The notes below the pieces were generated by a model. The model ran no database searches. It was not told the origin of the DNA and saw only the letters and a program-made list of their open reading frames with translations. Positions 572 through 34,523 of a DNA stretch of 64,000 nucleotides are shown in pieces (positions within the stretch are counted from its first letter, which is position 1; each line of letters begins with the position of its first letter). The DNA lies in NCBI GenBank assembly GCA_947367055.1, contig CANBCI010000001.1, positions 62,001 through 126,000 on the forward strand. The letters run 5' to 3'. Made by a program: the position numbers and the translations under genes. Source of the DNA: an uncultured Alphaproteobacteria bacterium. Lineage in GTDB: Bacteria > Pseudomonadota > Alphaproteobacteria > Rs-D84.

Positions 572-600
572 TTGAAAAATATCACACAAATCCCTATAAT
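572..600 (+). promoter_or_regulatory. Promoter of the cysteine-rich protein gene at 674
   Basis: TTGAAA (572-577), a 17-nt spacer and a perfect TATAAT (595-600). The -10 box lies inside the sequence shared with the inverted copy near 14.8 kb, but the -35 box does not. Transcription should start near 607, giving a leader of about 67 nt with an A7 tract and a small dyad at 649-660. Confidence 0.75.
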
Positions 601-964
601 TACAGGCATGCGGGGCGAAGGACAAAAGCCCAAAAAAACGGTCGTTTCACTTGTGCAAGTAGCGGAGGGACATATGCGGCACAAATCGTGGATATTTTCT
701 GATAAGACAATGCTGAATTTAATCCACCGTTTTCTTTTCTCTACATTAGTGCTGATATGTGTAAATCCGTTTGCATATGGTGCGGGCTACACATGCCCCG
801 CATATAAAAAATACACATCGTGCAGTTCCGGGTATTATCTGAACGGGACGGGTGCGGGAAATTCGTGTGATGCGTGTCCGTCCGGGTGCACATGTGCCGG
901 CGGTACTGCACAGCCTGTATGCAACTGTGACCCTGGATATTATAAATTAAACGGCGAATGCGTT
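589..964 (+). repeat. Inverted long repeat, copy 1 (leader and N-terminal part of a cysteine-rich protein)
   Basis: This 376-bp segment is identical to the reverse complement of 14470-14846 except for one A in a homopolymer (A7 here, A8 there). It covers the -10 box, the 5' untranslated region, the signal peptide and about 97 codons. Identity stops abruptly after the GECV codons at 964, after which the two genes differ at nucleotide level. Confidence 0.95.
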
Positions 965-2206
965 GAATGCGGCGCCGGCGGTTATTACTGCCCCGGCGAC
1001 AATAACAGATACAGATGTCCCGCAAATAACCAAGATTTGGCGATATTATCCGGTGCCGAAGTTCTTGAGCAAAAGCAAGAATGGTCCAGCAGTTCCCCAC
1101 GTTCAACCAATGCCGGTCAATGCATGGGCGACGCTTACATAAAAACAGAATCTGGGACATATCTGGCGGAATGCTCGTGGAACGGCAAAAATTATTATGA
1201 TGCTTGTAACGGTGACTTTTTATGGTACGCGGCAAATACCGGGTATTACTTATATGGATATAAAAGCACATCGTGGGAAGCATGGTATAGCGGCGCGCGC
1301 GCATGCACAAATGCGCCGGCGAACTCGCACTATACAGGCGCCGGCGATCCGGAAACAAACAACTGCCCGTGGATATGCGATGCCGGATACTATCTGTCGG
1401 GCGGCAGCTGCGTACAGTGCGAATCCGTTTATTATTGCCCGGGCGACAACAACCGATATTCATGCCCCACCCCGCAAAGCGATAAATATTATACTTACGG
1501 CTGGGCATATTCAATAAACAGCCCAAAGGGCAGCACATCAATAACACAATGCAATCTGGACAGGGCCCTGGGGGAAACATGGATTTATGAATTCCAATAT
1601 AACGGCCTGTACCGCTGGACCGGTAAATGTTATTATTCCCCAGAAACAGAGATATACAACAACTGCGAAAACGACCGGTATTTTCGTGAATGCAATGCCG
1701 GGTATTATGCCAGCACAATTCCGCTGGGGCCGGGATTCTCCAATTCTTGCCAGCCGTGCGACGCCGGCTCATACACCAAGGCGGCCGGGCACCTGGGCAT
1801 AACGGGCAGCAACGATGATTCATACCATTACGCCACATCATGCACGTTATGTGAAACCGGTACTTACAATGACAAAAGCGCCGGCACATCGTGCACCGCA
1901 TGCACAAACGGGCCCGATAATTCGCATTATGTCGGAACGGGCGCCAATTCCGCCAATTGCCAGTGGGAATGCGACACAGGACATAACAAAACAGTCAAAA
2001 ACACCTGTGCGCCGGTATGTGATGCCGGAATAACCACACTGCGTGTTGGAAATATTTCAATACCGTTATACAAATCCCGAAACACCGCACCGGCATTGAA
2101 CATAGGTTTCAACGGCCAGGTATGCTATGGCGATTTGGCGGACGGTGATGCGGCCGGCGAATTAAACATAAATTACGGTGGAAAAACATATCACACGGCC
2201 AAATAA
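674..2206 (+). CDS. Exported cysteine-rich modular protein (paralogue 1)
   Basis: Function unknown. The start at 674 is chosen because GGAGGG sits 4 nt upstream and the product then opens with a signal peptide ending near the AYGAG residues. The mature part (about 475 residues) is built from repeated short modules of the type GYYLxxxxC, CPGDNNRYxCP and CxxCxxG. These resemble EGF or TNF-receptor-like repeats and are probably held by disulfides. The last 60 residues form a domain shared with the paralogue at 13207-14760: AGITTL, SIPLYK, QVCYG, then a YH-containing end. Its promoter, leader and first 97 codons are practically identical to that paralogue, in inverted orientation. Most likely a surface or periplasmic protein; signs of recent recombination are clear. 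Confidence 0.8.
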   Translation: MRHKSWIFSDKTMLNLIHRFLFSTLVLICVNPFAYGAGYTCPAYKKYTSCSSGYYLNGTGAGNSCDACPSGCTCAGGTAQPVCNCDPGYYKLNGECVECGAGGYYCPGDNNRYRCPANNQDLAILSGAEVLEQKQEWSSSSPRSTNAGQCMGDAYIKTESGTYLAECSWNGKNYYDACNGDFLWYAANTGYYLYGYKSTSWEAWYSGARACTNAPANSHYTGAGDPETNNCPWICDAGYYLSGGSCVQCESVYYCPGDNNRYSCPTPQSDKYYTYGWAYSINSPKGSTSITQCNLDRALGETWIYEFQYNGLYRWTGKCYYSPETEIYNNCENDRYFRECNAGYYASTIPLGPGFSNSCQPCDAGSYTKAAGHLGITGSNDDSYHYATSCTLCETGTYNDKSAGTSCTACTNGPDNSHYVGTGANSANCQWECDTGHNKTVKNTCAPVCDAGITTLRVGNISIPLYKSRNTAPALNIGFNGQVCYGDLADGDAAGELNINYGGKTYHTAK

Positions 2207-2207
2207 A

Positions 2208-2228
2208 AATCCCGCGTAATGCGGGATT
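2208..2228. terminator. Bidirectional terminator between convergent genes
   Basis: AATCCCGC, a 5-nt loop and GCGGGATT. On the minus strand the stem is followed by a longer T-rich tract, so it mainly serves dnaJ; it also ends the cysteine-rich gene. Confidence 0.8.
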
Positions 2229-2231
2229 GTA

Positions 2232-3380
2232 TTAAAACCAGCCTTTTTTATCCGATTTGGTTTCGGCAAATTCCTTTAATATCTTCTTTTGCTTTTCCGT
2301 AAGTTTTGTCGGAATTCGTGTCGCAATGTCTATGTACATGTCACCGAACGAACCGGCACGGCGCCCCGGCATGCCATGCCCGCGAACGCGCAATTTTTCA
2401 CCAATCTGGGTTCCGGCGGGCACCTTTACCGACAAGGTCTTGTCATCAATCGTTTCGACATCAATTTCACCACCCAGCGCCAATGTTGTAAACGGCACCT
2501 CGATACGAGTGATTAAATCCGCCCCCTGGCGTACAAATCGCTTGTCTGGGCGCACACGCACATCCAGATAGAAATCGCCCGCCGGCGCCCCGTTTTGACC
2601 GGCCTCGCCCTGCCCGGCCAAACGCAGGCGGGCCCCGTCATCAATACCGGCCGGAATTTTTACGTCCAGCGTACGTTGTTTGTGCACGGTGCCGTCCCCG
2701 CCGCATTCTGTGCATTTTTTATCAATCTTGCGCCCCAGGCCATTACATTCCGGGCAAGGCGTCTCCATTGCAAAAAATCCCTGGCGCGTGTGGACATATC
2801 CCGTTCCGTGGCAGTTTTGACATTCTGGCGCCGGCTTGCCGTCAGCCGTTCCAAACCCATGACATTTTTCACATGTCGTGTTTGTTGAAAACTTAACCGT
2901 GTGCGTTTTTCCAAAGTACGCGTCGCGCAGGTCAATTACAACCTCGTCCAGCAGGTCGCGGCCGGCACGCGCCGTCGTCGCCGCGCGCCCCGCACCGGCA
3001 GATGCGCCGGTGCCAAACCCGTCAAAACCAAAACCGCGCATCGCCTCGCGCAGAATGTCTTCCATGCCGCCGGCACCGCCGCCCATATTGAAATGAAACG
3101 CACCATCGCCAAACGGATTTGCCCCGAATCCGGCCCCGGCCGACGCACCGTTTCCGCCCGCGAACGCCGCGTCACCGAAACGATCATACGCCGCCCGCTT
3201 TTGCGGGTCTTTCAATATATCAAACGCATTATTGACTTCTTTGAATTTTTCTTCGGCCGACTTGTCACCCGGATTTTTATCCGGATGATATTTCATAACC
3301 AATTTATGATATGCCTTTTTAATATCTGCGTCGGACGCGTCACGGGCGACACCCAAAACTTCATATGGATTTTTATTCAT
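2232..3380 (-). CDS. dnaJ: Molecular chaperone DnaJ (Hsp40)
   Basis: Co-chaperone that stimulates DnaK ATPase activity and delivers substrates. At 382 residues it is full length. The J domain (residues 1-70) contains HPD within YHPDKNPGD, and a Gly/Phe-rich linker follows. The zinc domain has all four CxxCxGxG motifs ([32 protein letters not shown]) before the C-terminal substrate-binding domain. The ATG at 3380 has a GGGA ribosome site and begins directly at the J domain; an upstream TTG would add eight unconserved residues. Neither dnaK nor grpE is adjacent. Confidence 0.97.
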
Positions 3381-3445
3381 CGCATAATTCCCATTTATTT
3401 CCAAGATTATATAGGTTTAATTATACACAAAATCAAGCCCATAAA

Positions 3446-3474
3446 AACAAAAAAGGATGGGAATATACCCATCC
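3446..3474 (-). terminator. Terminator of the HAD gene
   Basis: Perfect 7-bp stem GGATGGG/CCCATCC with a 6-nt loop, followed on the minus strand by TTTTTTGTTTTT. Confidence 0.85.
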
Positions 3475-3478
3475 ATTG

Positions 3479-4072
3479 TCAAAGCTTTTTAACCCGCATG
3501 TAATCTGCAAATGCAGCCAAACTTTCAAAGTTCATCGCAGCATACTTTTGGCACGCCTGTTTTACGGCGCCCTTGTTCGCGGATATAAATACCGGCGACG
3601 CGTTTATCATGTACGCACTGCGAATATTATGCAACGAATCATCCAAAACATACATATGGTCAAAAACGGGCTTTGCCATGCGGTAAAAATTAATCTTCGG
3701 CTTGTCCAAACCCAAAAGTTCATACCTGTTGATTTTATTCATGCATGCCGCACGTGAACGATAAAACTTTTCCAATCCGACCGTATCCGATTCAAACGGC
3801 ATTGTCGAACACACATCAACCGAACAATCGCCGCGGCTGGTCAGATAGTCAATAGCCGCCTCGGCCCCGGGCAAAAATTTTGCATTTTCACGACATTCAC
3901 GAATTAAATCGGATATTTCATCCAAAATTTCCGCGCGATATGCCTCGGCACAAAATTTTACCAGCATCGCCGACGCACGAAAATATCCATACTTTTTAAA
4001 TCCCGTTTTTATAACCAGTTCCTTAATCGGCTCAAAAACAACGCCGTCCAAATCCAATATTATTTTAGCCAT
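3479..4072 (-). CDS. HAD-superfamily hydrolase
   Basis: Small 197-residue protein of the haloacid-dehalogenase fold. Motif I at residues 4-11 (ILDLDGVV) carries the nucleophile Asp and the second acid Asp two residues on. Near residue 145 a DDSLHN motif matches the metal-binding motif III/IV acidic pair. The rest is helical cap and core and does not tell the substrate; it resembles 5'-nucleotidase or phosphoglycolate-phosphatase-like members. The ATG at 4072 has AAGGA 7 nt upstream. It is transcribed alone, divergent from parE and ended by a strong terminator. Confidence 0.75.
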   Translation of the reverse strand: MAKIILDLDGVVFEPIKELVIKTGFKKYGYFRASAMLVKFCAEAYRAEILDEISDLIRECRENAKFLPGAEAAIDYLTSRGDCSVDVCSTMPFESDTVGLEKFYRSRAACMNKINRYELLGLDKPKINFYRMAKPVFDHMYVLDDSLHNIRSAYMINASPVFISANKGAVKQACQKYAAMNFESLAAFADYMRVKKL

Positions 4073-4134
4073 ACAATCATCCTTGCCAAAACAAATTACA
4101 CAAAAGCCCCACGGTTTGTCAAGAATTGTTTCGC

Positions 4135-4163
4135 TTGCGAAAAATCAAATTTTGCGCTAATAA
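4135..4163 (+). promoter_or_regulatory. Promoter of parE, predicted leaderless
   Basis: TTGCGA (4135-4140), a 17-nt spacer, then TAATAA (4158-4163). The predicted start point, about 7 nt further on, falls 2-3 nt before the ATG at 4173, and no Shine-Dalgarno sequence is present. Confidence 0.55.
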
Positions 4164-4172
4164 TGTCATGCT

Positions 4173-6152
4173 ATGACAGATACTAATACACATTCTTATG
4201 ACGCATCAGACATTCAGGTTTTAGAAGGTTTGGAACCCGTTCGCCTGCGGCCGGGCATGTATATCGGCGGCACGGATGAAAAGGCGTGGCATCACCTGCC
4301 GGTGGAAATAATGGATAACTCCATTGACGAGGCGGTCGCCGGATTCGCAAAAAAAATATCGGTGAACCTGATTGATGCGAAAACAATTGAAATAACCGAC
4401 GACGGACGCGGCATTCCGGTTGACGAACATCCAAAATACCCCGGCAAATCCGCGTTGGAGGTTATACTTACCACCCTGCATTCGGGCGGCAAGTTCAACA
4501 ATAATGTCTACAAGACAAGTGGCGGTCTGCACGGGGTCGGTTCGGCCGTGGTGAACGCGTTAAGCGCGGAAATGATTGTCACCATTTCACGCGACGGATA
4601 CGAATGGCGCCAGACCTTTTCCCGCGGCAAACCAACCAGCCCAATGACACGCGGCGATGCGACACGCGCGCACGGCACAAAAATCCGCTTTACAATTGAC
4701 GATGAAATATTCGGCGCAAACGCGGTTTTCAAGCCGATAAAAATATACCGCATGGCGCAGGCAAAATCCTTTCTGTCGCGCGGGGTGAAAATTGAATGGA
4801 AATGCAACCCGCTGCTCTTAACCGAAGATATGGGCATCCCCTCCGACACAACATTTTATTATCCGAACGGCGTCGCCGACTTTCTGGAAGAAAAAACAAA
4901 ATCCAAACCGCGTATTTTGCCACGCATATTCAGCGGATCAGTTGATTTCCCCGATGACACGGGACGCGTTGAATGGGCGCTGACATTCCTGACGGATGAA
5001 AACGGCGCGGCATCTGACGATGGATTCTTTTCATCATACTGCAACACGATTGCGACAATTGACGGCGGCACACATGAAACCGGATTTAAATCCGCCATTA
5101 CCAAGGGGATAAAGGCGTACGGTGAAAAAACCAATAACAAACAGGCCGCCGCAATTATCGGCGACGACGTCTTTGATTCGGTTGCGGCAATTGTTTCGGT
5201 GTTTTACAAAACCCCGCAATTTCTGGGGCAAACCAAAGAGAAATTATCCAATCCAGAGGTTGCGCGCTATACCGAAAACGCACTGCGTGACCCGTGGGAA
5301 ATATTCCTGGCGTCCGATCCGAAAACATCAAACGCGTTGCTGGAATTTGTAATAAACCTTGCAAATGCGCGCATCAAGACAAAACAGGTCAAGGATGTCG
5401 CACGCAAAACACCAACCAAGCGCATACGCATGCCGGCAAAACTGGCCGATTGTTCAAAGCACGGCGTCGCTGGAACAGAACTGTTTATTGTAGAGGGCGA
5501 ATCGGCGGGTGGCACCGCAAAACAGGCGCGCGACCGCGCGACCCAGGCGATTATGCCCCTGCGCGGCAAGGTGTTAAATGTTATATCAAATTCTGATGAA
5601 CGCTTTGGCGCAAACAAAGAATTAAACGAACTGATTGAAATCATCGGTGCTGGCACCGCCAAGGATTGGAACGAAGACAAGTTGCGCTATGAAAAAATAA
5701 TTGTGATGACCGATGCCGACGTGGACGGCAGCCATATTGCATCACTGTTAATGGCGTTCTTTTACCAGCATATGCCGCAATTGATATACGGGGGGCATCT
5801 GTACCTGTCATGTCCGCCGTTATATAAACTGACATGCGGGACCGAATCGATTTATGTGGACACCGACGAAGAACTTGAAGAATTAAAGAACGGCAAATAT
5901 AAAAACAAAAAAATTGAAATTTCACGCTTCAAGGGACTTGGCGAGATGATGCCGAACCAGCTAAAGGAAACCACCATGTCGCCGAAAACACGGCGCCTGA
6001 TTCGTGTCGATTTGCCGCCACGCACCGCCGACGGCGCAGACGACACGGAAAAAACGCGAACAATCGTTTCGGAACTTATGGGTAAAAAACCCGAATTTCG
6101 GTTTAAATTCATAACGGAACACGCGCAATTCGTTAAAGACCTGTTCGTATAA
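4173..6152 (+). CDS. parE: DNA topoisomerase IV subunit B
   Basis: ATPase subunit of the type II topoisomerase that unlinks daughter chromosomes; its partner ParC is not in the window. The GHKL ATPase domain has EIMDNSIDE, DDGRGIP and GGLHGVGSAVVNALS. The Toprim domain has IVEGESAGG (near residue 435) and MTDADVDGSH. The C-terminal end has RFKGLGEMMP. Length (659 residues) and the GGTDEKAxHHL stretch fit ParE rather than the longer GyrB. No ribosome site precedes the ATG; the -10 box ends 9 nt before it. Its stop overlaps the ATG of the next gene (TAATG). Confidence 0.9.
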   Translation: MTDTNTHSYDASDIQVLEGLEPVRLRPGMYIGGTDEKAWHHLPVEIMDNSIDEAVAGFAKKISVNLIDAKTIEITDDGRGIPVDEHPKYPGKSALEVILTTLHSGGKFNNNVYKTSGGLHGVGSAVVNALSAEMIVTISRDGYEWRQTFSRGKPTSPMTRGDATRAHGTKIRFTIDDEIFGANAVFKPIKIYRMAQAKSFLSRGVKIEWKCNPLLLTEDMGIPSDTTFYYPNGVADFLEEKTKSKPRILPRIFSGSVDFPDDTGRVEWALTFLTDENGAASDDGFFSSYCNTIATIDGGTHETGFKSAITKGIKAYGEKTNNKQAAAIIGDDVFDSVAAIVSVFYKTPQFLGQTKEKLSNPEVARYTENALRDPWEIFLASDPKTSNALLEFVINLANARIKTKQVKDVARKTPTKRIRMPAKLADCSKHGVAGTELFIVEGESAGGTAKQARDRATQAIMPLRGKVLNVISNSDERFGANKELNELIEIIGAGTAKDWNEDKLRYEKIIVMTDADVDGSHIASLLMAFFYQHMPQLIYGGHLYLSCPPLYKLTCGTESIYVDTDEELEELKNGKYKNKKIEISRFKGLGEMMPNQLKETTMSPKTRRLIRVDLPPRTADGADDTEKTRTIVSELMGKKPEFRFKFITEHAQFVKDLFV

Positions 6153-6403
6153 TGCCGAATTTACCGCCCCGCCCCGACATAACGCGACTGCACACAACGC
6201 CAATGGGCGCGGGGCGGATTCGGCGTAACCTGTCACTTTGCCCGAATACGGATGCGGTGGATTTTGTGCGGCGCATTGTATCCGCGGCCCCCGATTGTAA
6301 CATCATTTCCCGTGGCAAGAACTTTTATGTACATACCCGCAACATTGTAATAACCATAAACGCGCACAGCAACACCATTATCACTGCGCATAAAACCGTA
6401 TAA
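6152..6403 (+). CDS. DUF3781 family protein
   Basis: Small 83-residue protein whose pattern matches DUF3781: LHTTxxGxxRIRRNLxL near the start, a middle stretch ending in a Cys, then SRGKNFYV and a terminal ITINAxSxTIITAHK. The biochemical role of the family is unknown to me. Its ATG overlaps the parE stop codon by one base, so it is translationally coupled to parE and probably co-transcribed. Confidence 0.75.
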   Translation: MPNLPPRPDITRLHTTPMGAGRIRRNLSLCPNTDAVDFVRRIVSAAPDCNIISRGKNFYVHTRNIVITINAHSNTIITAHKTV

Positions 6404-6408
6404 AAATA

Positions 6409-6436
6409 TTGACAATTTAATTTTTTGTGTTTTAAT
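6409..6436 (+). promoter_or_regulatory. Promoter of the gene at 6465
   Basis: Consensus TTGACA (6409-6414), a 16-nt spacer and TTTAAT (6431-6436), 28 nt before the start codon. Confidence 0.6.
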
Positions 6437-6464
6437 GCTATTAAATAGATACAAAAGGCACAAA

Positions 6465-6893
6465 ATGTCCATATATAAAAATACAAATTATTCCGCCAAA
6501 CCGGCATCATTTACAATGACATGCAAGCCGGGAATATCAAACACGTACAAATTGGATTTTTCCGGCGCCACACCGCAGATTAGTCGTGAATACATAAAAA
6601 AATTTACGCGCAACAAGGCGTCCATTATTCAATCGGAATACAATGAAATCGTTCCATACTTCGGTTTTGATTTGGCACGCACTGTAATTGAATACCTGGA
6701 CAAAGACACCGGCGCGCCTGTAATCATGCTGTTCCCGACAACAACGCACATTTTCGACGGATACAATGAAAAAAATTATATTCAGCATTTAAGCCGCCGC
6801 GCACAAAACGACTTATACAAAGAAATGGAACTTCGTGCGTCTATGATTGACAACTATATAAAAGAAACAATGCACGCAAAAACCTGCATGTAA
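6465..6893 (+). CDS. Hypothetical protein
   Basis: I do not recognise this 142-residue protein. The ATG at 6465 has AAGG 6 nt upstream and a good promoter before it; an ATG 30 nt earlier in frame lacks a ribosome site. No signal peptide or membrane segment is visible. The sequence is mixed and mildly basic, ending in a helical part rich in Lys, Glu and Met. It stands alone between parE-DUF3781 and a convergent exported protein. Confidence 0.6.
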   Translation: MSIYKNTNYSAKPASFTMTCKPGISNTYKLDFSGATPQISREYIKKFTRNKASIIQSEYNEIVPYFGFDLARTVIEYLDKDTGAPVIMLFPTTTHIFDGYNEKNYIQHLSRRAQNDLYKEMELRASMIDNYIKETMHAKTCM

Positions 6894-6900
6894 AACAAAA

Positions 6901-6920
6901 CACCGCCCAACCGGGCGGTG
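6901..6920. terminator. Terminator between convergent genes
   Basis: Perfect 8-bp stem CACCGCCC/GGGCGGTG with loop AACC. The T-rich tail TTTTGTTTT lies on the minus strand, so it chiefly ends the gene at 6941-8347. Confidence 0.85.
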
Positions 6921-6940
6921 TTCCAATAAAAGCCGTTATT

Positions 6941-8347
6941 TTATTTGATACCGACGCGGAACAAATCATCCCAGCCGGCGACCACCTGGCCCCCTACGGT
7001 ACAGCTTATATCTTCAAAGCCGTTCTTTATTTGGTTCTTTTTTATCACGTTACTTGTTATCAGGCCCCCCGCCGTCCCCAGCACCACGCCAGCTATCGAA
7101 TCGGATGCCAGGCGCGTTGTATTGAACTTTCCGTCCTCGTTCTTCCATACCGTCTTTTCAAATCCGTCTGCTATGCCCTTTGCAGATTGCGCCGCTTCCT
7201 TTATCTTGTTTCGGCTCTGACTTTCCAAATTTATTGTGCCGCCAGCGGTCTGCGTTGTCACACAACGGCCATTCGCATCCATCGTTTTGTCTGATTCTAT
7301 ACATACGCATTTCCCCAGCACATAATTCCATTGGGTTTCACTGCCCGCATTACATGCCGCTATAACCGGATTTTCCACGCACCGGTCTTGCTGCCATATT
7401 TTTGTAGTGTCACGGCATATGCATTCTTTCCCATTCCAATAGGCGATGTCATTCCCAGCCTTTTCACAGTTTCCCTTTTCCAATGCCGAATCAGCCATTT
7501 TGCAAGTTTTTGTGGCGGTGTCAAACTCGTAATTTTCATTTATACATTCACACACCTTGCCAACAGTCTTTAGATTTTTTGCCGCATCACATATGCACTT
7601 GCCATTCGACCACACGCCACCAGATGCTTCACAAGGCGCCTTGTTAGGGTTAGGTGCAGTTATTACGACCGGATCTATCTCTATTTCCGGCATATTGTCG
7701 GGATTTTTATCCGGTTTCGGGTTGTTTGACGGCGATTTTGTTGTTGCACCATCACAATCCGTCTCGACCCATCGATCGCCACCAGATGTCAGACAAATAT
7801 AACATTTTTGTTCATTTACAATGCTGCCTTTAAATTTATGGCCGGCATTAACATTTATTTTTTTCCCTTCGGCACATCCGCTTTCGTCATCACATTCATA
7901 TACATTATTACCGGAATATATAAATTCATTATCGTTACCATATTGAACCGAAAAAGCAGTTCTAACCGTGCCGATTTGGGCCGGGCACGCTTTTTCAACA
8001 TATCCTCTTTTCGGCTTTGTCACACCAGATGTCTGTATCTTCCACTTATCACTTATCCCCGTGCTACATTTATATGTAACTTCCTGGTTTATGGTCTGTC
8101 CCATAAAAATGTGTCCGCTTGGCAACGTTATTTCTGTATTATTTTGACAATGCTCATTATCACACTCATAGGCATAGTCACCATAATATAAAAATTCATC
8201 ATCGGTTTGTTGCTGATTACCTGTGTATGAAACTGTTAATCTGGCCTTTCCGCAACCGTTTATTGCACCAGCCGCATCGGCCCCCACAGCATGAGTTATG
8301 CCAAACAGGCAAACCATTGAAACCATAAAAAAGCGCGTAAAGTTCAT
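6941..8347 (-). CDS. Exported cysteine-rich protein with C-terminal glycine zipper
   Basis: Function unknown; 468 residues. A signal peptide (residues 1-25, ending near VGADA) is followed by two similar modules at about 30-110 and 120-200 (SYTGN or QYGND, then EFIYxGxxxYECD, GHxFxGxxxN, and paired Cys). A linker rich in Pro, Asn and Asp follows, then four short modules of the type CxxxGxxWxxGKCxC. The last 80 residues hold a small-residue hydrophobic segment (SIAGVVLGTAGGLITSNVI), a glycine-zipper-like stretch that could insert in a membrane. The ATG at 8347 has GGAGAG 7 nt upstream. Confidence 0.7.
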   Translation of the reverse strand: MNFTRFFMVSMVCLFGITHAVGADAAGAINGCGKARLTVSYTGNQQQTDDEFLYYGDYAYECDNEHCQNNTEITLPSGHIFMGQTINQEVTYKCSTGISDKWKIQTSGVTKPKRGYVEKACPAQIGTVRTAFSVQYGNDNEFIYSGNNVYECDDESGCAEGKKINVNAGHKFKGSIVNEQKCYICLTSGGDRWVETDCDGATTKSPSNNPKPDKNPDNMPEIEIDPVVITAPNPNKAPCEASGGVWSNGKCICDAAKNLKTVGKVCECINENYEFDTATKTCKMADSALEKGNCEKAGNDIAYWNGKECICRDTTKIWQQDRCVENPVIAACNAGSETQWNYVLGKCVCIESDKTMDANGRCVTTQTAGGTINLESQSRNKIKEAAQSAKGIADGFEKTVWKNEDGKFNTTRLASDSIAGVVLGTAGGLITSNVIKKNQIKNGFEDISCTVGGQVVAGWDDLFRVGIK

Positions 8348-8363
8348 AATTTCTCTCCATTTA

Positions 8364-8393
8364 TGCGCAATTCAACGATGATTTGAATGCGCA
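8364..8393 (-). promoter_or_regulatory. Dyad in the leader of the exported protein gene
   Basis: TGCGCA-ATTCAA and TTGAA-TGCGCA form an 11-bp inverted repeat with a one-base bulge and a 7-nt loop. It ends about 5 nt before the GGAGAG ribosome site, so it could mask translation or bind a regulator; there is no T tract for termination. Confidence 0.4.
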
Positions 8394-8506
8394 AACACCT
8401 TGCTTTTATGAATATATTTTATCATAAATTCGGCACCATTCCAATCATGAAATTTACGCGGTTCCAAAAATCATTCACTTATTTTGATTGAATATCCGCC
8501 GTTGTT

Positions 8507-9796
8507 TTATCTGCATTCTGCAACCAACTGTGATATTTGCGCCGACAAAACCAAATCTGTTTTCTTTAATTTTTCAATCTGGGAAATCGCATACAAAACC
8601 GTCGCATGATCACGGTCACCCACCAGGCGCCCTATTTCCGTCAAAGACATGTTTGTTGATTCTTTTAATACGGCCATCATCGTCTGACGCGCCAGAACCA
8701 AAGAGCGACTGCGCCCCGCGCCGCATACGGCGTCATATGACACACCCAGTTTTTCACACATGGACTTAACCATTACAATCGGTGTTTTTGATTTTTCCAA
8801 AGTATCGGCCAGCAACCGTTGCGCAACGTCCATATCAACGGTCGCGCCCATCAGTTCGGCATAGGTCTTTATTTTTAACGCAATACCGCAAACCAAATGC
8901 CCATTACCGGATATGCGGCGGGACAATGCGTCCGCAACATCCGATGCGACACCTGCGCGGCGCAACATAACCGCACGAACATGCACGTTCGGCAAAGCCA
9001 CATCCGCCACCAAGCCCGAGGCCAGCACCGCCTGCATACGGCGGTCAAATCCCGACAAATTATTCGGCGCCGCGTTCGCTGTCAGAACAATGTTTTTTCC
9101 GGCCGCACGCAAATCCATAACCAGTTGCAAAAATTCTTCGCATGTTGCACGCTTGCCTGCCAAAGTATGCACATCATCCATAATAAATGTATCACAATTG
9201 CGGCAATAGTCTTTGAATGCAAATACCGCGCGATCATGCAGGCTGCGTGCGAATTCCGCAACAAACTGACCGCCCGTCATCATAATTACGCGCCCCGCCG
9301 CCGACGCATTTATCGCCCCCGCCAACAGTGATTTTCCGCAACCCGCCGGCCCATAGATAAACAAAGGTGAAAACGCAACCGCGCCAGACGCAATTTTTTT
9401 GCAGGCCGACAAAACAAACGCGTTTTCGTCGGATGCGACAAAATCATCAAATGCGGACGCATCACGCGCGGATTTAACAGAATCATTTTTAACCGGCGTA
9501 TAACGCTGAACATTATTGTCGTTTGCAACCGGCGCATTTTTTGCCGCCGCGCCACGCACCGCAACATTCACAGAAATTCCAAATTCCGCGGCAACCGCAT
9601 TCAACACACCGCTGTGCACGCTGTTTATAAAATCGGCGGAAAACTGGTTTTGCGCACGCAGCGTCAAAGCATCGTCGGCAAGTTCAAAATCAAGCGGTGA
9701 AATCCAGGAAGAAAAGCTTGCAGAATCCATTTTTGCGGCAATGGCCCCCTTGATTTGTTCCAAGTTCGTCATTTGCTTTGTCGCCGCTACCTGCAT
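8507..9796 (-). CDS. dnaA: Chromosomal replication initiator protein DnaA
   Basis: AAA+ initiator that binds DnaA boxes and opens the origin. The 429 residues show an N-terminal domain I (helix with SFSSWISPL), a linker at about 85-120, and the AAA+ domain with Walker A GPAGCGKS (about 149-156) and a Walker-B-like MDDVHTLAGK. The C-terminal domain has the DnaA signature (EIGRLVGDRDHATVLYA). The ATG at 9796 has AAGGAGA 7 nt upstream; a longer upstream reading would add 22 unconserved residues. DnaN is not next to it. Confidence 0.93.
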   Translation of the reverse strand: MQVAATKQMTNLEQIKGAIAAKMDSASFSSWISPLDFELADDALTLRAQNQFSADFINSVHSGVLNAVAAEFGISVNVAVRGAAAKNAPVANDNNVQRYTPVKNDSVKSARDASAFDDFVASDENAFVLSACKKIASGAVAFSPLFIYGPAGCGKSLLAGAINASAAGRVIMMTGGQFVAEFARSLHDRAVFAFKDYCRNCDTFIMDDVHTLAGKRATCEEFLQLVMDLRAAGKNIVLTANAAPNNLSGFDRRMQAVLASGLVADVALPNVHVRAVMLRRAGVASDVADALSRRISGNGHLVCGIALKIKTYAELMGATVDMDVAQRLLADTLEKSKTPIVMVKSMCEKLGVSYDAVCGAGRSRSLVLARQTMMAVLKESTNMSLTEIGRLVGDRDHATVLYAISQIEKLKKTDLVLSAQISQLVAECR

Positions 9797-10117
9797 GCTA
9801 TTTCTCCTTTCCTTCCCTAAAAGAGTTTTGCCCGTGCAAGAGTGTAAAAACCACCCATGCATAAACGCTAAATTTCACTTACCCGAATTATCAGATTCAT
9901 AAAAATTTAGTGTTTATGCTCGTCCTACTTGTTTATACTCTCTCGCTTGTTTGTTTTGTGTTTCAATCACCCGTTTAACACGATTGATAAGTTATAAGAT
10001 AAAATCTGATTTGCAACCAAATGTTAAACAATTTTTTAACATTTATTTTTTGACAACGATTCGTTTTTTTGCCCGTTTTCTGCGGCTTGTATATACACTG
10101 TATAGACATGAAAAGAA
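9797..10117. other. AT-rich intergenic region between dnaA and dprA
   Basis: These 321 bases hold no gene. They are AT-rich and include a near-perfect 17-bp inverted repeat (9859-9919) and an 8-bp dyad ATGTTAAA/TTTAACAT at 10021-10042. I searched by eye for TTATCCACA-type DnaA boxes and found none convincing, so the place beside dnaA is not enough to call an origin. Confidence 0.6.
9859..9919. repeat. Inverted repeat upstream of dnaA
   Basis: Arm 1 is GCATAAACGCTAAATTT (9859-9875). Arm 2 (9903-9919) is its reverse complement with one mismatch (16/17). The arms are 27 bp apart and lie 63-123 bp upstream of the dnaA start. Such spacing suits a regulator site or a large hairpin; there is no T tract. 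Confidence 0.7.
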
Positions 10118-11140
10118 TCATATCCGAATGTATCCGCCATCAACTTTTCGCACCAAACCCTGCAATTCTAAAATAACCAAATCGCTTTTAATTTCCGAAA
10201 TCGGTTTTTTGACAATCTGTGCCAATACAGATTCGGATACCGGATTTATCCCAATTTTATCCAACAACGGATTTTCAGGCATAAATTTTTCCGAAATTTT
10301 TCCCGTATCCGCATTTTTGCCAGTATTTTTAAAAAAGTCCGCTGAACCCGAACATAATTTGGCCAATCCCCCGGAAATCAAGGAATTTGGTCCGACACTT
10401 CTGGGGTCGGCGGGGTGTGACGGCACGGCCCACAAATCGCGACCGTATTCAATTGCGAATCGGGCGGTGGTCATGCTGCCGGATTTTATATCCGCCTCGC
10501 CCAGGATAAGTTTCTCTGCAATTCCGGCAATCCAGCGATTTCGCTGAACAAAATTTGTGGCACCGGGGACAAATCCGACCGGCATTTCACTGATAATCGC
10601 GCCATTTGAAACAATATCGTAATAAAGCGATTCGTTTTCCAACGGCCATATATAATCCGCCCCGCCCGCCAAGACCGCAATTGTCGCGGCGTGGCTGTTT
10701 GAACGCAGGGCGCCGCGATGCGCCGCGGTATCCGTCCCCATGGCCATGCCGCTTGCAACCGCATAGCCATTTTGTGCGAAATCCCGGGCCAAATTCGCCA
10801 TAAATCCCATGCCGGCGGCGGTTGCATGCCGCGTTCCGACCATTGCGACAATCGGCCGGCGCAAAGTATCAAGGTTACCGCGCACCGTAATTACCGGTGG
10901 ATGATTTTTTATCGCACGCAGCATGGTCGGATATAATTCGTCATCATCACATATATAATGAATGCCCATTCGCGATGCAGCATCCATTTCACGCAAAATC
11001 GCATCACGGCGATTTGCGTCCGCCCCGATTGAGGCCGCCGCCGCATCCGCGCCGCCGAAACGGCGGATCAAATCCGCATACTTTGCGGGCCCGACACCCG
11101 GCGTTCTGATAATCAACAACTTATTAAATAAATCCGACAT
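10118..11140 (-). CDS. dprA: DNA-processing protein DprA (Smf)
   Basis: Binds single-stranded DNA entering during natural transformation and loads RecA. In this 340-residue protein a helical N-terminal region (PGVGPAKYADLIRRFG) precedes the Rossmann-like core, which has VAMVGTRHATAAG, SGMAMGTDTAAHRGAL, VLAGGADYIWP and GAIISEMPVG. The C-terminal end forms a short winged-helix (SEIKSDLVILELQGLVRKVDGGYIRI). Natural competence is possible but not shown, because comEC and other uptake genes are not in the window. No clear ribosome site precedes the ATG. Confidence 0.93.
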   Translation of the reverse strand: MSDLFNKLLIIRTPGVGPAKYADLIRRFGGADAAAASIGADANRRDAILREMDAASRMGIHYICDDDELYPTMLRAIKNHPPVITVRGNLDTLRRPIVAMVGTRHATAAGMGFMANLARDFAQNGYAVASGMAMGTDTAAHRGALRSNSHAATIAVLAGGADYIWPLENESLYYDIVSNGAIISEMPVGFVPGATNFVQRNRWIAGIAEKLILGEADIKSGSMTTARFAIEYGRDLWAVPSHPADPRSVGPNSLISGGLAKLCSGSADFFKNTGKNADTGKISEKFMPENPLLDKIGINPVSESVLAQIVKKPISEIKSDLVILELQGLVRKVDGGYIRI

Positions 11141-11199
11141 GATAAATGCAGTATAAAAATTTATATAATGTCATAAAAGTGAAAATATCACCCACTCAT

Positions 11200-11229
11200 A
11201 AAAAAATGTCCGCCAATCCCGCGGACATT
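11200..11229 (-). terminator. Terminator of the gene at 11245
   Basis: Nine-bp stem AATGTCCGC/GCGGACATT with a 7-nt loop, followed on the minus strand by a run of T. Confidence 0.85.
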
Positions 11230-11244
11230 AAAATTATGCATCAA

Positions 11245-12093
11245 TTACAAGTTCAGGAAATAGTTATAATCATATTCCGTGCACTCTTCGGGCTTGCCAT
11301 TTGCCCATGTGACATCGGTTCTTTCGCATTCGTCACGCAACACGCGCATATAGCGCATAAACTTCTTGTAATCGTCGGAATCCTTTTCCGCCAGCAATTG
11401 TGAACGTAACCGTTCGTTTTCGCTTAATTTCTTGTTTTTCTGGCCTTCAACCTTGCCGCCGATCACCTTATTACCGAACAGCTCCATCATGCCGACACCG
11501 ACACCGGCACCACCCACAACACCACCAACTGTGCCCCATGTACGGCCTGATTTTTTAGCATCTAGGATGCGTTTTTCTATCTTTGACTTATCGGCCCACT
11601 CGCCACAGGTTATATCGCGCCCCATTTCATAATATTGGGCCGGAATATCGGCGACCGATATTTTTGCATCGTCCGAACGCAATTCGACCTTTACAAAGCA
11701 AGTGTTGTTTTCAGGGTTAGCCGTATCTTCAACCATGGATGCATAATTGTTTGTATTGCTGTACCGGGACGCCCACACAAAAGTATTACCGATGCCTATA
11801 TTATTCCCCAGACACGCCGCGCGTTCCTTTTCTCGCCTATCCTTGTCCGCGTTGCTGCTATCACCGGCGGCATTGGATGCCGGAATATCCACCTGTTGAC
11901 GGATGCTTGACTTATCAACCGTTGCGGCCGCATTCAAATCGCCCATTGCGTTTATCTGGTTTTTCGACACGGTTGTCGCGCGCGGCGATGCCATCTGTTC
12001 AGCCATTGAACGGCGCGCTGTAGCCACCTGCGACGCGGCAAGCGCGGGACTTGCGACACATAATAAAACCATGGCGGATATAAATCTTTTCAT
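11245..12093 (-). CDS. Exported protein with glycine zipper
   Basis: Function unknown; 282 residues. It has a signal peptide (MKRFISAMVLLCVASPALA), then an Ala/Ser/Thr-rich region, then a domain with four spaced Cys. Near residue 195 the segment GTVGGVVGGAGVGVGMMELFG is a strong glycine zipper, followed by a charged helical tail with two more Cys. Zipper-containing exported proteins often sit in the outer membrane or oligomerise; that is only an inference here. The ATG at 12093 has a GGATGGG ribosome site and begins the signal peptide. Confidence 0.7.
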   Translation of the reverse strand: MKRFISAMVLLCVASPALAASQVATARRSMAEQMASPRATTVSKNQINAMGDLNAAATVDKSSIRQQVDIPASNAAGDSSNADKDRREKERAACLGNNIGIGNTFVWASRYSNTNNYASMVEDTANPENNTCFVKVELRSDDAKISVADIPAQYYEMGRDITCGEWADKSKIEKRILDAKKSGRTWGTVGGVVGGAGVGVGMMELFGNKVIGGKVEGQKNKKLSENERLRSQLLAEKDSDDYKKFMRYMRVLRDECERTDVTWANGKPEECTEYDYNYFLNL

Positions 12094-12170
12094 TTTCCCA
12101 TCCTGCATTATTTTTATTTATTATATCACAAAAACGCAAAAAAATAAAGTCTAAAAACCTATATGCCACT

Positions 12171-12197
12171 AAAAAAGCCGCAAAAATATGCGGCTTT
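12171..12197 (-). terminator. Terminator of plsY
   Basis: AAAGCCGCA/TGCGGCTTT stem of 9 bp with a 6-nt loop, then TTTTTT on the minus strand. Confidence 0.85.
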
Positions 12198-12208
12198 ATT
12201 TCCATGTT

Positions 12209-12799
12209 TTATTTTTTCCATTTCCATTCTATTTTCGATTCGGTGCCTGCAATCAATCGCCCTATATTTTCGCGATGACGGAACAGACACAACAAACCAA
12301 TTGCCAAGAATGCAAAACCGATTCGAATATCTATTGCAAATCCCAATATCGGCATTAAACAGAACGCAACCACCGCCCCCAGTGACGAATACCCACTGGA
12401 CAACGCCACAATCAACCACTCAACCGCACATATCGCAAATGAAAGCGGGCTTACCGCCAGCAAAACCCCGAACAGTGACGATATTCCCTTGCCGCCATGA
12501 AAACGCAGCCAAATCGGATAACAATGCCCGACAATCGCCGCAAAACCGCACCATGCGCCAAACCAATCCCCCAGCACGGCATTTCCGATAAACACCGCGG
12601 CAATCGCCTTGGCCATGTCCAAAACCCATGTCGCCGCCGCCATGCGCAGGCCGCCGACCCGCATCACATTTGTTGCGCCGATGTTTCCGCTGCCCACCTT
12701 GCGCAGGTCGCCCTTGCCCGCCAACTTTGTTAATATCAGGCCCATGGGTATGCTGCCCAGTAAATAAGACACCACTATTGTAATTATTGGTAATATCAT
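12209..12799 (-). CDS. plsY: Acyl-phosphate--glycerol-3-phosphate acyltransferase PlsY
   Basis: Inner-membrane enzyme that transfers an acyl group from acyl phosphate to glycerol-3-phosphate, the first step of phospholipid synthesis; it expects PlsX as partner. It has 196 residues with about five transmembrane helices. All three family motifs are present: GSGNIGATNVMR, GHCYPIWLRFHGGKG (the phosphate loop) and a C-terminal RHRENI. It is divergent from rpsT and ended by its own terminator. Confidence 0.95.
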   Translation of the reverse strand: MILPIITIVVSYLLGSIPMGLILTKLAGKGDLRKVGSGNIGATNVMRVGGLRMAAATWVLDMAKAIAAVFIGNAVLGDWFGAWCGFAAIVGHCYPIWLRFHGGKGISSLFGVLLAVSPLSFAICAVEWLIVALSSGYSSLGAVVAFCLMPILGFAIDIRIGFAFLAIGLLCLFRHRENIGRLIAGTESKIEWKWKK

Positions 12800-12814
12800 T
12801 TTATTCTTCCATTT

Positions 12815-12844
12815 TTGCTTGATTTTATGTTTGTTTTCTATAAA
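12815..12844 (+). promoter_or_regulatory. Probable rpsT promoter
   Basis: TTGCTT (12815-12820), an 18-nt spacer and TATAAA (12839-12844), giving a short leader before the GTG start. Confidence 0.5.
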
Positions 12845-12880
12845 ATATCAAAAACATGACTAAAATAAAAGGAAAATAAA

Positions 12881-13141
12881 GTGGCAAATCACAAGTCATC
12901 TGAAAAAAGAATTTTGGTAACGGCCAAGAAAAACGCAATCAACACGTCCCGCCGCAGTGCGGTAAAAACCGCCGCAAAAAAGGTATTGGTTGCCGTTGAA
13001 TCCGGCGACAAGGCTGCCGCAACGGCCGCCGCCCGCAACGCGGAAAGCAAAATTATGAAATCCGCCGGTAAAATAATGCCGAAAAAACGCGCGGCACGCA
13101 AAATTTCTAGACTGACCAAAAAAGTTGCCCAAATGGCATAA
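12881..13141 (+). CDS. rpsT: 30S ribosomal protein S20
   Basis: Binds 16S rRNA early in small-subunit assembly. The 86 residues open with MANHKSSEKRI and are Lys/Arg/Ala-rich and helical, ending with the RLTKKVAQMA helix typical of S20. The start is GTG at 12881 with AAGGA upstream. It is monocistronic, between a promoter and a strong terminator. Confidence 0.95.
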   Translation: MANHKSSEKRILVTAKKNAINTSRRSAVKTAAKKVLVAVESGDKAAATAAARNAESKIMKSAGKIMPKKRAARKISRLTKKVAQMA

Positions 13142-13160
13142 TTTCAGATAGGAAAATTAA

Positions 13161-13187
13161 AACACCCCGCACGGGGTGTTTTTTATT
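13161..13187. terminator. Bidirectional terminator between rpsT and the cysteine-rich gene
   Basis: AACACCCCG/CGGGGTGTT stem of 9 bp followed by seven T on the plus strand; the minus strand has a weaker T-rich tail. Confidence 0.9.
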
Positions 13188-13206
13188 TTGTCCGCGTCGC
13201 CACCGT

Positions 13207-14760
13207 TTATTCCACGGCATGATACACCGAACCGCCGATGTTTACATTCAAGGCCCCGGTCGCACTGCCCGACGCCAAGCTGCCATAACACACTTGATTA
13301 TTATATCCGACATGCAATGACGGCGTCGTGCGCGAATTTTTGTACAACGGTATTGATACACCGTTGCCGATATGCAATGTCGTAATCCCGGCCTCGCAAA
13401 GCGGTATTTTCTCGCACAAGGCATCGCCATTCAATTCATACCCATTGACGCATTCCCATGGACAATTACTTTCCACCGCATACATTTCCGACGGCGTTGA
13501 ATACGATGTATAAATCGCATGCGCCGGCGCATTTGTACATGGCAAACATTTGCTGTACCAATTACCCCAATAAAGCGGTTCTGCGGCATAGTATCCGTCG
13601 CGGCAAGCCTCGTATTGTGTGAATGTTGTACCGGACGGCCCCAGGCTGCACTTGCCTTGATTTAAATAATATTTTCTTGTTTCATCTTCCAATATCCAAT
13701 CACATCTGCAATCATCGGCGGTTGTACAATGTTCCAAATCATCCCAAGAGCCATTTGACAAAGAATAAGTTGCGTTCGGGCTTGGCGAGCTTGACGGGAC
13801 CACATCAGCACAAGATGTGCGATTTGATCCGCCCGGGCAATAGTTCCCGCGGCCACAGGCGACGCACGATGTGTCACCGTTTGCACTGGAACCATAATAC
13901 CCCGCATCGCATTCCCACGGGCAGTTGGCGGAATTGGCACCCGTACCGACATAGTGTGCATTTTCCGGCTTGTTAGTGCACGCGGCGCATGATGTGCCGG
14001 CGCTTTGGTCGTTGTAAGTGCCGGTTTCACATAACGTGCATGATGTGGCATAGGTGTATGACGGATCCGGTCCGCCGGTATTGGGCACTGTATTGGTCGC
14101 CGTTGTATAGGAACCGGGGCTGCACGGCTGACATGAATTGGTGAAACCTGTACCTTCGGGTATGGAATTATTTTTATAATATCCGGCGTTACATTCCGAA
14201 AAAGTCTTGGCCGTACTGCAATCGTAAATATCCTTTTCAACCGAATAATAACACTTTCCGGATGCCCAGCGATAAAATCCATGATATTTAAATTCATATA
14301 TCCAACTGTCATACGCCGAATTATCCAAGTAACACTGAGTCGGGGATGTGCTACCTTGCGGGCTGAAACGTGACAATCTCCATCCGTACACGAAATACTT
14401 ATCGCTTTGGCCGTCCGGGCACCAATATTTTTCATTGTCACCTGGGCAATATGCATTTTCGTCGCACATAACGCATTCGCCGTTTAATTTATAATATCCA
14501 GGGTCACAGTTGCATACAGGCTGTGCAGTACCGCCGGCACATGTGCACCCGGACGGACACGCATCACACGAATTTCCCGCACCCGTCCCGTTCAGATAAT
14601 ACCCGGAACTGCACGATGTGTATTTTTTATATGCGGGGCATGTGTAGCCCGCACCATATGCAAACGGATTTACACATATCAGCACTAATGTAGAGAAAAG
14701 AAAACGGTGGATTAAATTCAGCATTGTCTTATCAGAAAATATCCACGATTTGTGCCGCAT
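13207..14760 (-). CDS. Exported cysteine-rich modular protein (paralogue 2)
   Basis: Function unknown; 517 residues from the ATG at 14760, which has GGAGGG 4 nt upstream. The signal peptide and residues 1-97 are identical to the protein at 674-2206. The middle then diverges, although it keeps the same module style (CPGDNxxYxCP, GTYNDxSAGTSCxACTN, CxxGYY). The last 60 residues are again alike (AGITTLHIGN, SIPLYK, NQVCYG). Probably a disulfide-rich surface or periplasmic protein. It lies inverted to, and 12.5 kb from, paralogue 1. Confidence 0.8.
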   Translation of the reverse strand: MRHKSWIFSDKTMLNLIHRFLFSTLVLICVNPFAYGAGYTCPAYKKYTSCSSGYYLNGTGAGNSCDACPSGCTCAGGTAQPVCNCDPGYYKLNGECVMCDENAYCPGDNEKYWCPDGQSDKYFVYGWRLSRFSPQGSTSPTQCYLDNSAYDSWIYEFKYHGFYRWASGKCYYSVEKDIYDCSTAKTFSECNAGYYKNNSIPEGTGFTNSCQPCSPGSYTTATNTVPNTGGPDPSYTYATSCTLCETGTYNDQSAGTSCAACTNKPENAHYVGTGANSANCPWECDAGYYGSSANGDTSCVACGRGNYCPGGSNRTSCADVVPSSSPSPNATYSLSNGSWDDLEHCTTADDCRCDWILEDETRKYYLNQGKCSLGPSGTTFTQYEACRDGYYAAEPLYWGNWYSKCLPCTNAPAHAIYTSYSTPSEMYAVESNCPWECVNGYELNGDALCEKIPLCEAGITTLHIGNGVSIPLYKNSRTTPSLHVGYNNQVCYGSLASGSATGALNVNIGGSVYHAVE

Positions 14761-14846
14761 ATGTCCCTCCGCTACTTGCACAAGTGAAACGACCGTTTTT
14801 TTTGGGCTTTTGTCCTTCGCCCCGCATGCCTGTAATTATAGGGATT
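14470..14846 (-). repeat. Inverted long repeat, copy 2
   Basis: This is the 377-bp partner of 589-964, in opposite orientation, differing only by one extra A (A8 instead of A7) in the leader. It covers the -10 box, leader, signal peptide and first 97 codons. Both ends of identity are sharp, as expected after gene conversion or recombination. Confidence 0.95.
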
Positions 14847-14863
14847 CCACCAGATTTTGGCAA
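14835..14863 (-). promoter_or_regulatory. Promoter of cysteine-rich paralogue 2
   Basis: TTGCCA (14863-14858), a 17-nt spacer and perfect TATAAT (14840-14835). The -35 box lies outside the repeat, so the two paralogues have different -35 elements on an identical -10 and leader. Confidence 0.75.
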
Positions 14864-19572: not shown

Positions 19573-20220
19573 TTATTCCACCACCCAGTTGCAACGTTTA
19601 CTAGCAATTTCAGAAGTTATTACAAATACGCCGGTTTCATCCTTGTATTCATTTCGACAATTGTCCCTTACGCAGCGCGAAGACTTCAAATAACAATCCG
19701 TAATTTTCATATTCGCCATGCTGGGTGTGTGTCCGTACGACCACTGCTGATCATTTTCATCAACCCATGCATTATCTACACAACCTTCGCACATAACCGA
19801 CGGACATTGCACGCAGTCGCCCGCGTCCGCTGAATAATAATAACCATATTCGCACGATGCGCTAACTGACACAACCGTCCATGTATCGCACATGCATCCA
19901 CTACCCTGTTCCGTAATTGTAACGTTACCCTCTGTCCTTGTACGTGTTCCGCAAGATGTATAACAAAACCCGGTAGAGCTGCATCGCAGATTACTGTATG
20001 TAGAGTTGACCGCAACATCCGTCACGCCGCCACCGCACCCGGCATACTGCGGAACGCAATTGCTGATATGTGTTGTGCCGCCACCCAGACACCATGCACA
20101 TTTGTTTGATTCATTTGCGCAATATACGTTATTGCCACTACTGCCATAGATAGAATACGCACCATATGCGCCATACATATTGCATAAAACAACAACAGCA
20201 ATCACAAATCTCTTTAGCAT
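19573..20220 (-). CDS. Exported cysteine-rich protein downstream of structured RNA A
   Basis: Function unknown; 215 residues. A signal peptide (MLKRFVIAVVVLCNMYGAYG) is followed by about 20 Cys in patterns such as CAWCLGG, CVQCPSVMCEGC and CGTRTR, so it is probably disulfide-stabilised outside the cytoplasm. The ATG at 20220 has GAGGA about 9 nt upstream. It is preceded by a promoter, a 191-nt structured RNA and a terminator whose U run ends 7 nt before that ribosome site. Its 3' end nearly meets the convergent sufB. It looks inserted into the suf locus. Confidence 0.75.
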   Translation of the reverse strand: MLKRFVIAVVVLCNMYGAYGAYSIYGSSGNNVYCANESNKCAWCLGGGTTHISNCVPQYAGCGGGVTDVAVNSTYSNLRCSSTGFCYTSCGTRTRTEGNVTITEQGSGCMCDTWTVVSVSASCEYGYYYSADAGDCVQCPSVMCEGCVDNAWVDENDQQWSYGHTPSMANMKITDCYLKSSRCVRDNCRNEYKDETGVFVITSEIASKRCNWVVE

Positions 20221-20241
20221 TGCGACAATTCCTCTTTCAAC

Positions 20242-20432
20242 AAAAACCACCAAAAAACGGTGGCTGGGGGATGAGAACAACTTCGAGAAATTGTGGGCTT
20301 ATTTATCTATATCGCCGCCCCCCAGCACTCTGGCCGGGGCACTTTTCATCACACAAAAAAAGACACTTTTACGCTTTTTTAGCATGACGCTCGAAAAGGG
20401 TTCTCATACCCGTCGACAGAACACCCGTCGAC
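20242..20432 (-). ncRNA. Structured leader RNA, copy A (unassigned family)
   Basis: Candidate 191-nt RNA, listed in RNA sense. Hairpin H1 spans 20432-20412 (7-bp stem, loop GGUGUUC). Hairpin H2 is at 20411-20398 (GGG, loop UAUGAGAA, CCC). Seven bases of the H2 loop (20407-20401) pair with 20277-20271. Helix P3 pairs 20395-20390 with 20287-20282 and encloses two hairpins plus the motif GAUAUAGAUAAAUA (20313-20300) and ACAAUU (20294-20289). The terminator CCACC/GGTGG plus five T is at 20263-20242. Copies B and C keep the same order with changed but paired bases. Whether it works in cis on the gene at 20220 or as a free RNA is not known. Confidence 0.75.
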
Positions 20433-34383: not shown

Positions 34384-34459
34384 GGGTGCGTAGCTCAGTT
34401 GGTAGAGCAACTGACTCTTAATCAGTGGGTCCAGGGTTCGAGTCCCTGCGCGCCCACCA
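34384..34459 (+). tRNA. tRNA-Lys (CTT)
   Basis: Cloverleaf with acceptor GGGTGCG/CGCGCCC, D arm AGCTCAGTTGGTAGAGC, anticodon stem ACTGA/TCAGT, loop CTCTTAA (anticodon CTT), T arm CAGGGTTCGAGTCCCTG, discriminator A and an encoded CCA. Its last 21 bases are repeated 191 bp downstream. Confidence 0.97.
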
Positions 34460-34523
34460 AAAATAAATGTCGCCTTTATGGCGGCAATTTATTTTTTGTA
34501 TCGGGCAAGCCGGACGAAGAACC
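34439..34523 (+). repeat. Direct repeat 1: tRNA-Lys 3' end plus downstream sequence
   Basis: 85 bp starting in the T loop of tRNA-Lys and including its CCA, the terminator and GGGCAAGCCGGACGAAGAACC. It is repeated at 34630-34715 with one extra T. Confidence 0.95.
34461..34497 (+). terminator. Terminator after tRNA-Lys
   Basis: GTCGCC/GGCGGC stem extended by AT pairs, followed by a run of six T. The same hairpin recurs in the second repeat near 34652-34689. Confidence 0.8.

Follow-up and report, generated by a model that had tools for sequence, protein, structure and literature searches.

Two paralogous genes in an uncultured alphaproteobacterium, here called cysA and cysB, begin with almost the same sequence and then part company. 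How this shared front end arose, and what it may do, is the question raised by the locus. The window, by which we mean the whole analysed stretch of 64,000 nucleotides, is part of a 328-kb contig; the genome comprises 960 kb in five contigs. The original prediction described an inverted repeat whose copies differ by one A, run from the -10 box through about codon 97 and end sharply where the two genes diverge; it also called for a search for other copies. This description is borne out. Global alignment and genome search agree on identity in 376 of 377 columns between window positions 589-964 and the complement of 14470-14846, the sole difference being an A7/A8 run in the 5' leader, a homopolymer that could reflect a sequencing error. 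The block spans the -10 box (595-600) to about codon 97 of both cysA (ATG at 674) and cysB (ATG at 14760-14758, minus strand), and its edges are sharp, with identity falling to ~45-55% upstream of 589 and past 964, apart from one 86% patch further into the genes. The genome search found a weaker, partial third copy at C2:221228 (86% over 128 bp). An identity of 376 bp between paralogues that are ~40% identical overall at the protein level is not due to chance. The repeat is the common front end of two secreted cysteine-rich proteins, with the following features.

589-964, plus strand: homogenised block, copy A (376/377 columns identical to copy B)
14470-14846, minus strand: homogenised block, copy B (376/377 columns identical to copy A)
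1820-1974, plus strand, with 13907-14061, minus strand: second patch common to both genes, 86% (repeat search)
674-2206, plus strand: cysA, 510-aa cysteine-rich protein with an N-terminal signal peptide; reading frame open to 2206
13207-14760, minus strand: cysB, 517-aa paralogue of cysA, at the site between rpsT and pilQ; open reading frame
572-600, plus strand: fixed promoter of cysA, TTGAAA - 17 nt - TATAAT (595-600), with 11/12 matches in a promoter scan, a score that can also arise by chance
14835-14863, minus strand: fixed promoter of cysB, TTGCCA (14863-14858) - 17 nt - TATAAT (14840-14835), read by eye, with its -35 outside the repeat

To judge from its signal peptide and its cysteine-rich repeats, each product would be exported and may be exposed at the surface. 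No Pfam or NCBIfam family was found for the proteins at E 1e-3, and a weak Ephrin_rec_like match in the cysteine-rich proteins fell below the cut-off. A structure predicted from two sequences had a mean pLDDT of 38 and was discarded as too poor. A conserved C-terminal stretch, ITTLxxGN-SIPLYK...QVCYG.L..G.A.G.LN.N..G..YH, is present at window 2005-2206, at 13207-13410 and at G000:C1:157584 (G000 being the window genome), and C-termini of the ITTLxxGN-SIPLYK type recur at the ends of several otherwise unlike cysteine-rich proteins in the genus. The window encodes two more exported cysteine-containing proteins without a Pfam family, at 6941-8347 and 19573-20280 (both minus strand). Elsewhere in the window, a perfect 59-bp direct repeat (34439-34497 and 34630-34688, 191 bp apart) overlaps the 3' end of a tRNA gene (34384-34456) and looks like a partial tRNA duplication or an integration scar.

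Gene order and the origin of the shared block

The original prediction offered two explanations for the identity, recent gene conversion or inversion of the 13.5 kb between the copies. In the latter, homologous recombination at the 376-bp repeats would invert the segment and swap the tails behind the two upstream promoter regions. The geometry permits this, as the repeats are near-identical and inverted, with the tails inside and the promoters outside. We took the dnaA region from 26 same-genus genomes and placed the window genes on each. The order pgsA-dnaJ-parE-dnaA-dprA-plsY-rpsT-pilQ and the orientations are unchanged in the 22 relatives whose sequence could be followed all the way from pgsA to pilQ, and the parts examined in four others agree; across these relatives of other species the orientation of 965-14469 is constant and the segment is nowhere inverted. 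In addition, the far C-termini remain with their own loci in G053, the closest relative (DnaA 90% identical). Inversion of the 13.5 kb is therefore very unlikely, and that part of the prediction is not supported.

The comparison with G053 points instead to gene conversion. Cysteine-rich genes occupy the rpsT/pilQ site (that of cysB) in several relatives, while a cysA-like gene is present at the pgsA/dnaJ site in the window genome and G053 only; hence, cysA is probably the younger locus. Both loci existed before the split from G053, and the heads are 100% identical within the window species, compared with only 75-84% identity to the G053 heads. The G053 gene at the cysB site is a mosaic: its 5' third is cysB-like (63-71% identity to cysB versus 33-52% to cysA), its middle, corresponding to cysA 1407-1905, is cysA-like (76-88% to cysA versus 41-52% to cysB) and its 3' end is again cysB-like (82-85% to cysB versus 60-66% to cysA). 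An internal mosaic is expected of conversion rather than of reciprocal inversion. Non-reciprocal exchange explains the identity of the repeat, given the mosaic and the locus-specific C-termini, and reciprocal inversion does not. The 86% patch shared by the two genes is also consistent with conversion tracts. The same pattern of identical head and diverged tail is seen in the six genes of G063, where six elements are 94-99% identical, with upstream sequences at 60-72% and tails at 45-98%. Alternatively, the identity might reflect a recent duplication or an assembly artefact: the one-base homopolymer difference could be an error, and perfect repeats can confuse assembly. However, a new duplication would hardly explain identity limited to the head when the loci predate the split from G053, and unique flanks run on both sides of each copy within one 328-kb contig, so that this alternative is unlikely. 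On these alignments, recent gene conversion between cysA and cysB offers the best explanation of the 376-bp identity, and here the original prediction appears to have been right.

A probable start-codon inverton within the block

Inside each copy of the block is a short segment bounded by inverted repeats, which contains the start of the gene.

636-732, plus strand: start-codon inverton A, ON (orthologous 97 bp inverted in the closest relative; flip test)
14702-14798, minus strand: start-codon inverton B, ON, same sequence as A (repeat-pattern scan, flip test)
664-676, plus strand: cysA Shine-Dalgarno sequence GGAGGGA (664-670) and ATG (674-676), within inverton A (sequence)
14758-14770, minus strand: cysB start codon (14760-14758) and Shine-Dalgarno sequence (14770-14764), within inverton B (sequence, flip test)

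The 97-bp segment is delimited by AAACGGT...ACCGTTT. In inverton A the arms lie at ~635-658 and 710-733, with cores GGT at 640-642 and ACC at 726-728, and the inverted repeats are imperfect (16-17 of 24 positions matched). The cargo consists of the Shine-Dalgarno sequence, the ATG and the first 18 codons; GGAGGGA and ATG 674 are followed by first codons MRHKSWIFSDKTMLNLIH and then at once by the hydrophobic core FLFSTLVLICVNPFAYGA. Upstream, at 45-46 bp from the left core, is a fixed TATAAT, and the fixed cysA promoter stands outside the inverton. As the only promoter-like site found for the window invertons is the external one at 572-600, the segment is not an invertible promoter; nor, with a ribosome-binding site, ATG and first codons inside, is it a segment devoid of both promoter and open reading frame. 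An AAACGGT scan of the window found no inverton at the two further exported cysteine-containing genes noted above.

G053 has the same segment in the opposite orientation. When this genome was searched with the block, the cysB site gave two matches side by side, one on each strand. The part homologous to window 632-732 aligns in opposite orientation only (86% over 101 bp), the sequence downstream of it aligns normally (82%), and the breakpoints fall at AAACGGT/ACCGTTT with normal flanks. As assembled, the G053 gene lacks a start codon and has an in-frame TAA just before the hydrophobic core; flipping the segment in silico restores MRHKPGIFSDMKMLNLIHRFLFS. The G053 pgsA contig stops precisely at the left repeat, as would be expected if the assembler had met two orientations in the reads.

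A flip test was applied to 14 loci in 12 species, of which 5 were ON (both window copies, G064 C2, G115 and G086) and 9 OFF as assembled; with six further start-codon invertons in G063, all OFF, the count reaches 20 in 13 species (5 ON, 15 OFF), all of the compared genomes probably being metagenome assemblies. At each of the 14 loci an open frame with Shine-Dalgarno sequence and start exists in exactly one orientation, and every OFF copy regains an in-frame start on flipping, in a test with a loose control, since misplaced flips gave in-frame starts in 0-20% of trials per locus. The GG and CC cores of these 14 loci are 88-90 bp apart, and all 14 have a TATAAT at 45-46 bp ahead of the left core, two of them with a second TATAAT. 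Start-proximal peptides are alike in most (M-x-[QHR]-[KN]-S-x-[IF]-F type), and most of them were recovered only by flipping. The orthologous rpsT/pilQ site is ON in the window genome and OFF in G053, G064, G072, G073 and G116, so that opposite orientations at one site are seen between species; the heads in G064 and G054 are nearly identical but oppositely oriented. Serine recombinases require a matched crossover dinucleotide. In 13 of the 14 loci the core triplet matches between arms (GGT/GGT or GGA/GGA); the exception, G118, has GGA/CGA, with only GA in common, and starts with GTG. GT or GA may be the crossover dinucleotide of these elements. Exact scans for AAACGGT-type heads missed relatives with AAAGGGT/AAAGTGG arms, which a GG[T/A] core scan recovered.

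Taken together, these observations indicate that the window element is evidently a phase-variable ON/OFF switch that would act at the level of translation. The suggestion of surface variation in the original prediction therefore survives in spirit, but the mechanism would be another one, namely a start-codon inverton of 97 bp within the repeat in place of an exchange of tails.

Promoter-type elements and a candidate recombinase

The same repeat family extends beyond start codons; in this genus it also delimits elements that carry a promoter and lie upstream of genes for exported proteins. A search for AAACGGT-N70-100-ACCGTTT across 115 genus genomes found many 96-98-bp elements, with up to 19 pattern matches in G047, while counts in many other genomes of the genus were no higher than in the control. 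Single 111-bp matches recurring in many genomes look like a single conserved coding sequence, by eye probably that of ribosomal protein L10, and were set aside. We read 40 stretches around elements; many hold TTGAC-N17-TAAAAT-like promoters, 20-100 bp from a signal-peptide gene. By an approximate hand count, ~23 of 28 elements with one such neighbour point away from it (OFF) and 5 towards it, and two elements sit between two signal-peptide genes. These sister elements, for example those of G047 and G020, have the promoter inside the segment, as invertible promoters do, and the paralogous loci L255 and L256 are in opposite orientation. L264 (G064:C1:77158-77266) and L262 (G115:C4) lie between two divergent signal-peptide genes, so that a single flip would turn one gene off and the other on. 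The window genome has a third element of the family, 96 bp long, at G000:C3:39817-39912 (L260 2018-2113). A gene that begins like a membrane transporter lies 27 bp away, and neither a promoter nor a start codon could be clearly recognised within the element.

Three PF00239 genes are present in the window genome. One, at G000:C2:87147, encodes a 205-aa serine recombinase that scores 307.3 bits against NCBIfam NF009949 (master DNA invertase Mpi family), above the curated cut-off of 272 bits, and is thus a member of that family. The second, a related small recombinase at C4:170, falls below this cut-off (246.6 bits), and the third is larger. Orthologues of C2:87147 in G053, G020, G047, G088 and G010 also pass (301-313 bits). 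G047, the genome richest in elements, has one PF00239 gene, plus three Phage_integrase matches. Family membership and co-occurrence in the genus suggest that the Mpi homologue at C2:87147 is probably the flipping enzyme. A small serine recombinase is found within ~1-5 kb of an invertible element in G047:C14, G020:C1, G010:C18 and G063:C7. A tyrosine invertase was considered and rejected: G000, G053, G020 and G093 each have only two Phage_integrase-type genes, consistent with XerC/XerD. A 30-base inverton probe had no match in viral contigs.

The proposed switch, its rivals and known systems

Our results make it very likely that the repeats are head cassettes with a fixed promoter and a 97-bp start-codon inverton, probably flipped by an Mpi-family enzyme and made identical by gene conversion. 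The sequences themselves show the element, its opposite orientations at one and the same site in different species, a frame that is lost and then restored by flipping, and genes that are mosaics; we infer that orientation also switches within one population. Each copy would be the head cassette of a gene for a phase-variable exported protein. Transcription would begin at the fixed promoter. In the inverton downstream of it, imperfect inverted repeats of ~20 bp, whose conserved core is GGT (GGA elsewhere), enclose the start codon along with the ribosome-binding site and the initial codons of the signal peptide. In the ON orientation the ATG would be in frame with the remaining signal peptide and protein would be made; in the OFF orientation the message would have no usable start and an in-frame stop just before the hydrophobic core, and no protein would result. 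The flipping would most likely be done by a small serine recombinase, a 'master DNA invertase' of the Mpi family whose gene lies in another part of the genome, and recent gene conversion between the paralogues would have made the two cassettes identical over 376 bp.

Two other readings of the element have to be weighed. The 97-bp elements are small, have terminal inverted repeats and occur in many copies per genome (as in G047), and might be MITE-like mobile sequences, scattered by transposition, with opposite orientations arising from independent insertions. This is extremely unlikely, as orthologous sites show opposite orientations with unchanged flanks, each insertion would have to rebuild the frame of a gene whose start codon the element holds, and an Mpi-family invertase is present. 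Alternatively, the inverted orientation may form a transcription terminator, the loss of the start codon being secondary; a fixed promoter upstream of an invertible segment is also the arrangement of cwpV in Clostridioides difficile, where the 195-bp segment lacks both promoter and open reading frame and is proposed to form a terminator (PMC2784873). Hardly any weight can be given to this reading, however: folding predictions give the cysA leader a lower stability in the OFF orientation (-42.5 kcal/mol) than in the ON orientation (-54.6 kcal/mol), the only nearby terminator-like site in a scan of the present orientation lies after pgsA, and the element has a start codon and Shine-Dalgarno sequence, absent from the segment of cwpV.

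The start-codon switch nevertheless shares with cwpV a fixed promoter, an inverted segment between promoter and gene body that would act after transcription start, and a cell-surface protein as product, here a putative one; it differs in that the segment includes the start of the open reading frame. In Bacteroides fragilis, 13 regions are inverted by Mpi, and polysaccharide promoters make up seven of these (PMC4747536). The genus studied here resembles B. fragilis in that its recombinase belongs to that NCBIfam family, several short invertible elements are spread over the genome, the loci have a repeat family in common, and promoter-type elements occur as well; however, the window element carries a start codon and ribosome-binding site instead of a promoter, the host is an alphaproteobacterium, and the targets are cysteine-rich exported proteins and not capsule operons. 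In Mycoplasma agalactiae (Vpma) and Ureaplasma (mba/UU172), inversion either connects different genes with a promoter or exchanges neighbouring genes (PMC2268961, PMC3047005). Conserved 5' leaders and signal-peptide heads, variable tails and site-specific inversion are common to those systems and ours, whereas each of our genes comes with a separate promoter and a separate small switch. Intragenic or partial-gene invertons, in which inversion of a segment with coding sequence changes or abolishes the protein, were reportedly described by Chanin et al. in 2024, a study cited in PMC11868660. In our case, too, the inverted segment includes coding sequence and would affect the protein, but the 97 bp form a dedicated cassette, at a fixed distance from the promoter, that recurs at many loci of the genus. 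In Campylobacter fetus sap and Dichelobacter nodosus omp1, surface-protein paralogues are switched by inversion of the DNA between genes. Paralogues in opposite orientation with a common conserved 5' block are found here as well, but no inversion of the intervening DNA was seen in 26 genomes. Our literature search, of limited reach, found neither a study of invertons in this group nor one of cassettes that invert a start codon.

In most of the invertible switches described so far, it is a promoter that moves. A cassette of start codon and ribosome-binding site would represent phase variation at the level of translation, reused at many loci in the genus. We lean towards a wider view, in which one Mpi-type invertase runs genome-wide phase variation of exported proteins in the genus through both invertible promoters and invertible start codons, with head cassettes spread and homogenised by gene conversion. 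If this is true, some proteins would be switched in transcription and others in translation with the message always made. The start-codon cassette would also extend Mpi-type control to the Alphaproteobacteria, and it predicts mixed orientations in existing metagenome reads, which can be tested, and population diversity of exported cysteine-rich proteins in an uncultured group with genomes of ~1 Mb.
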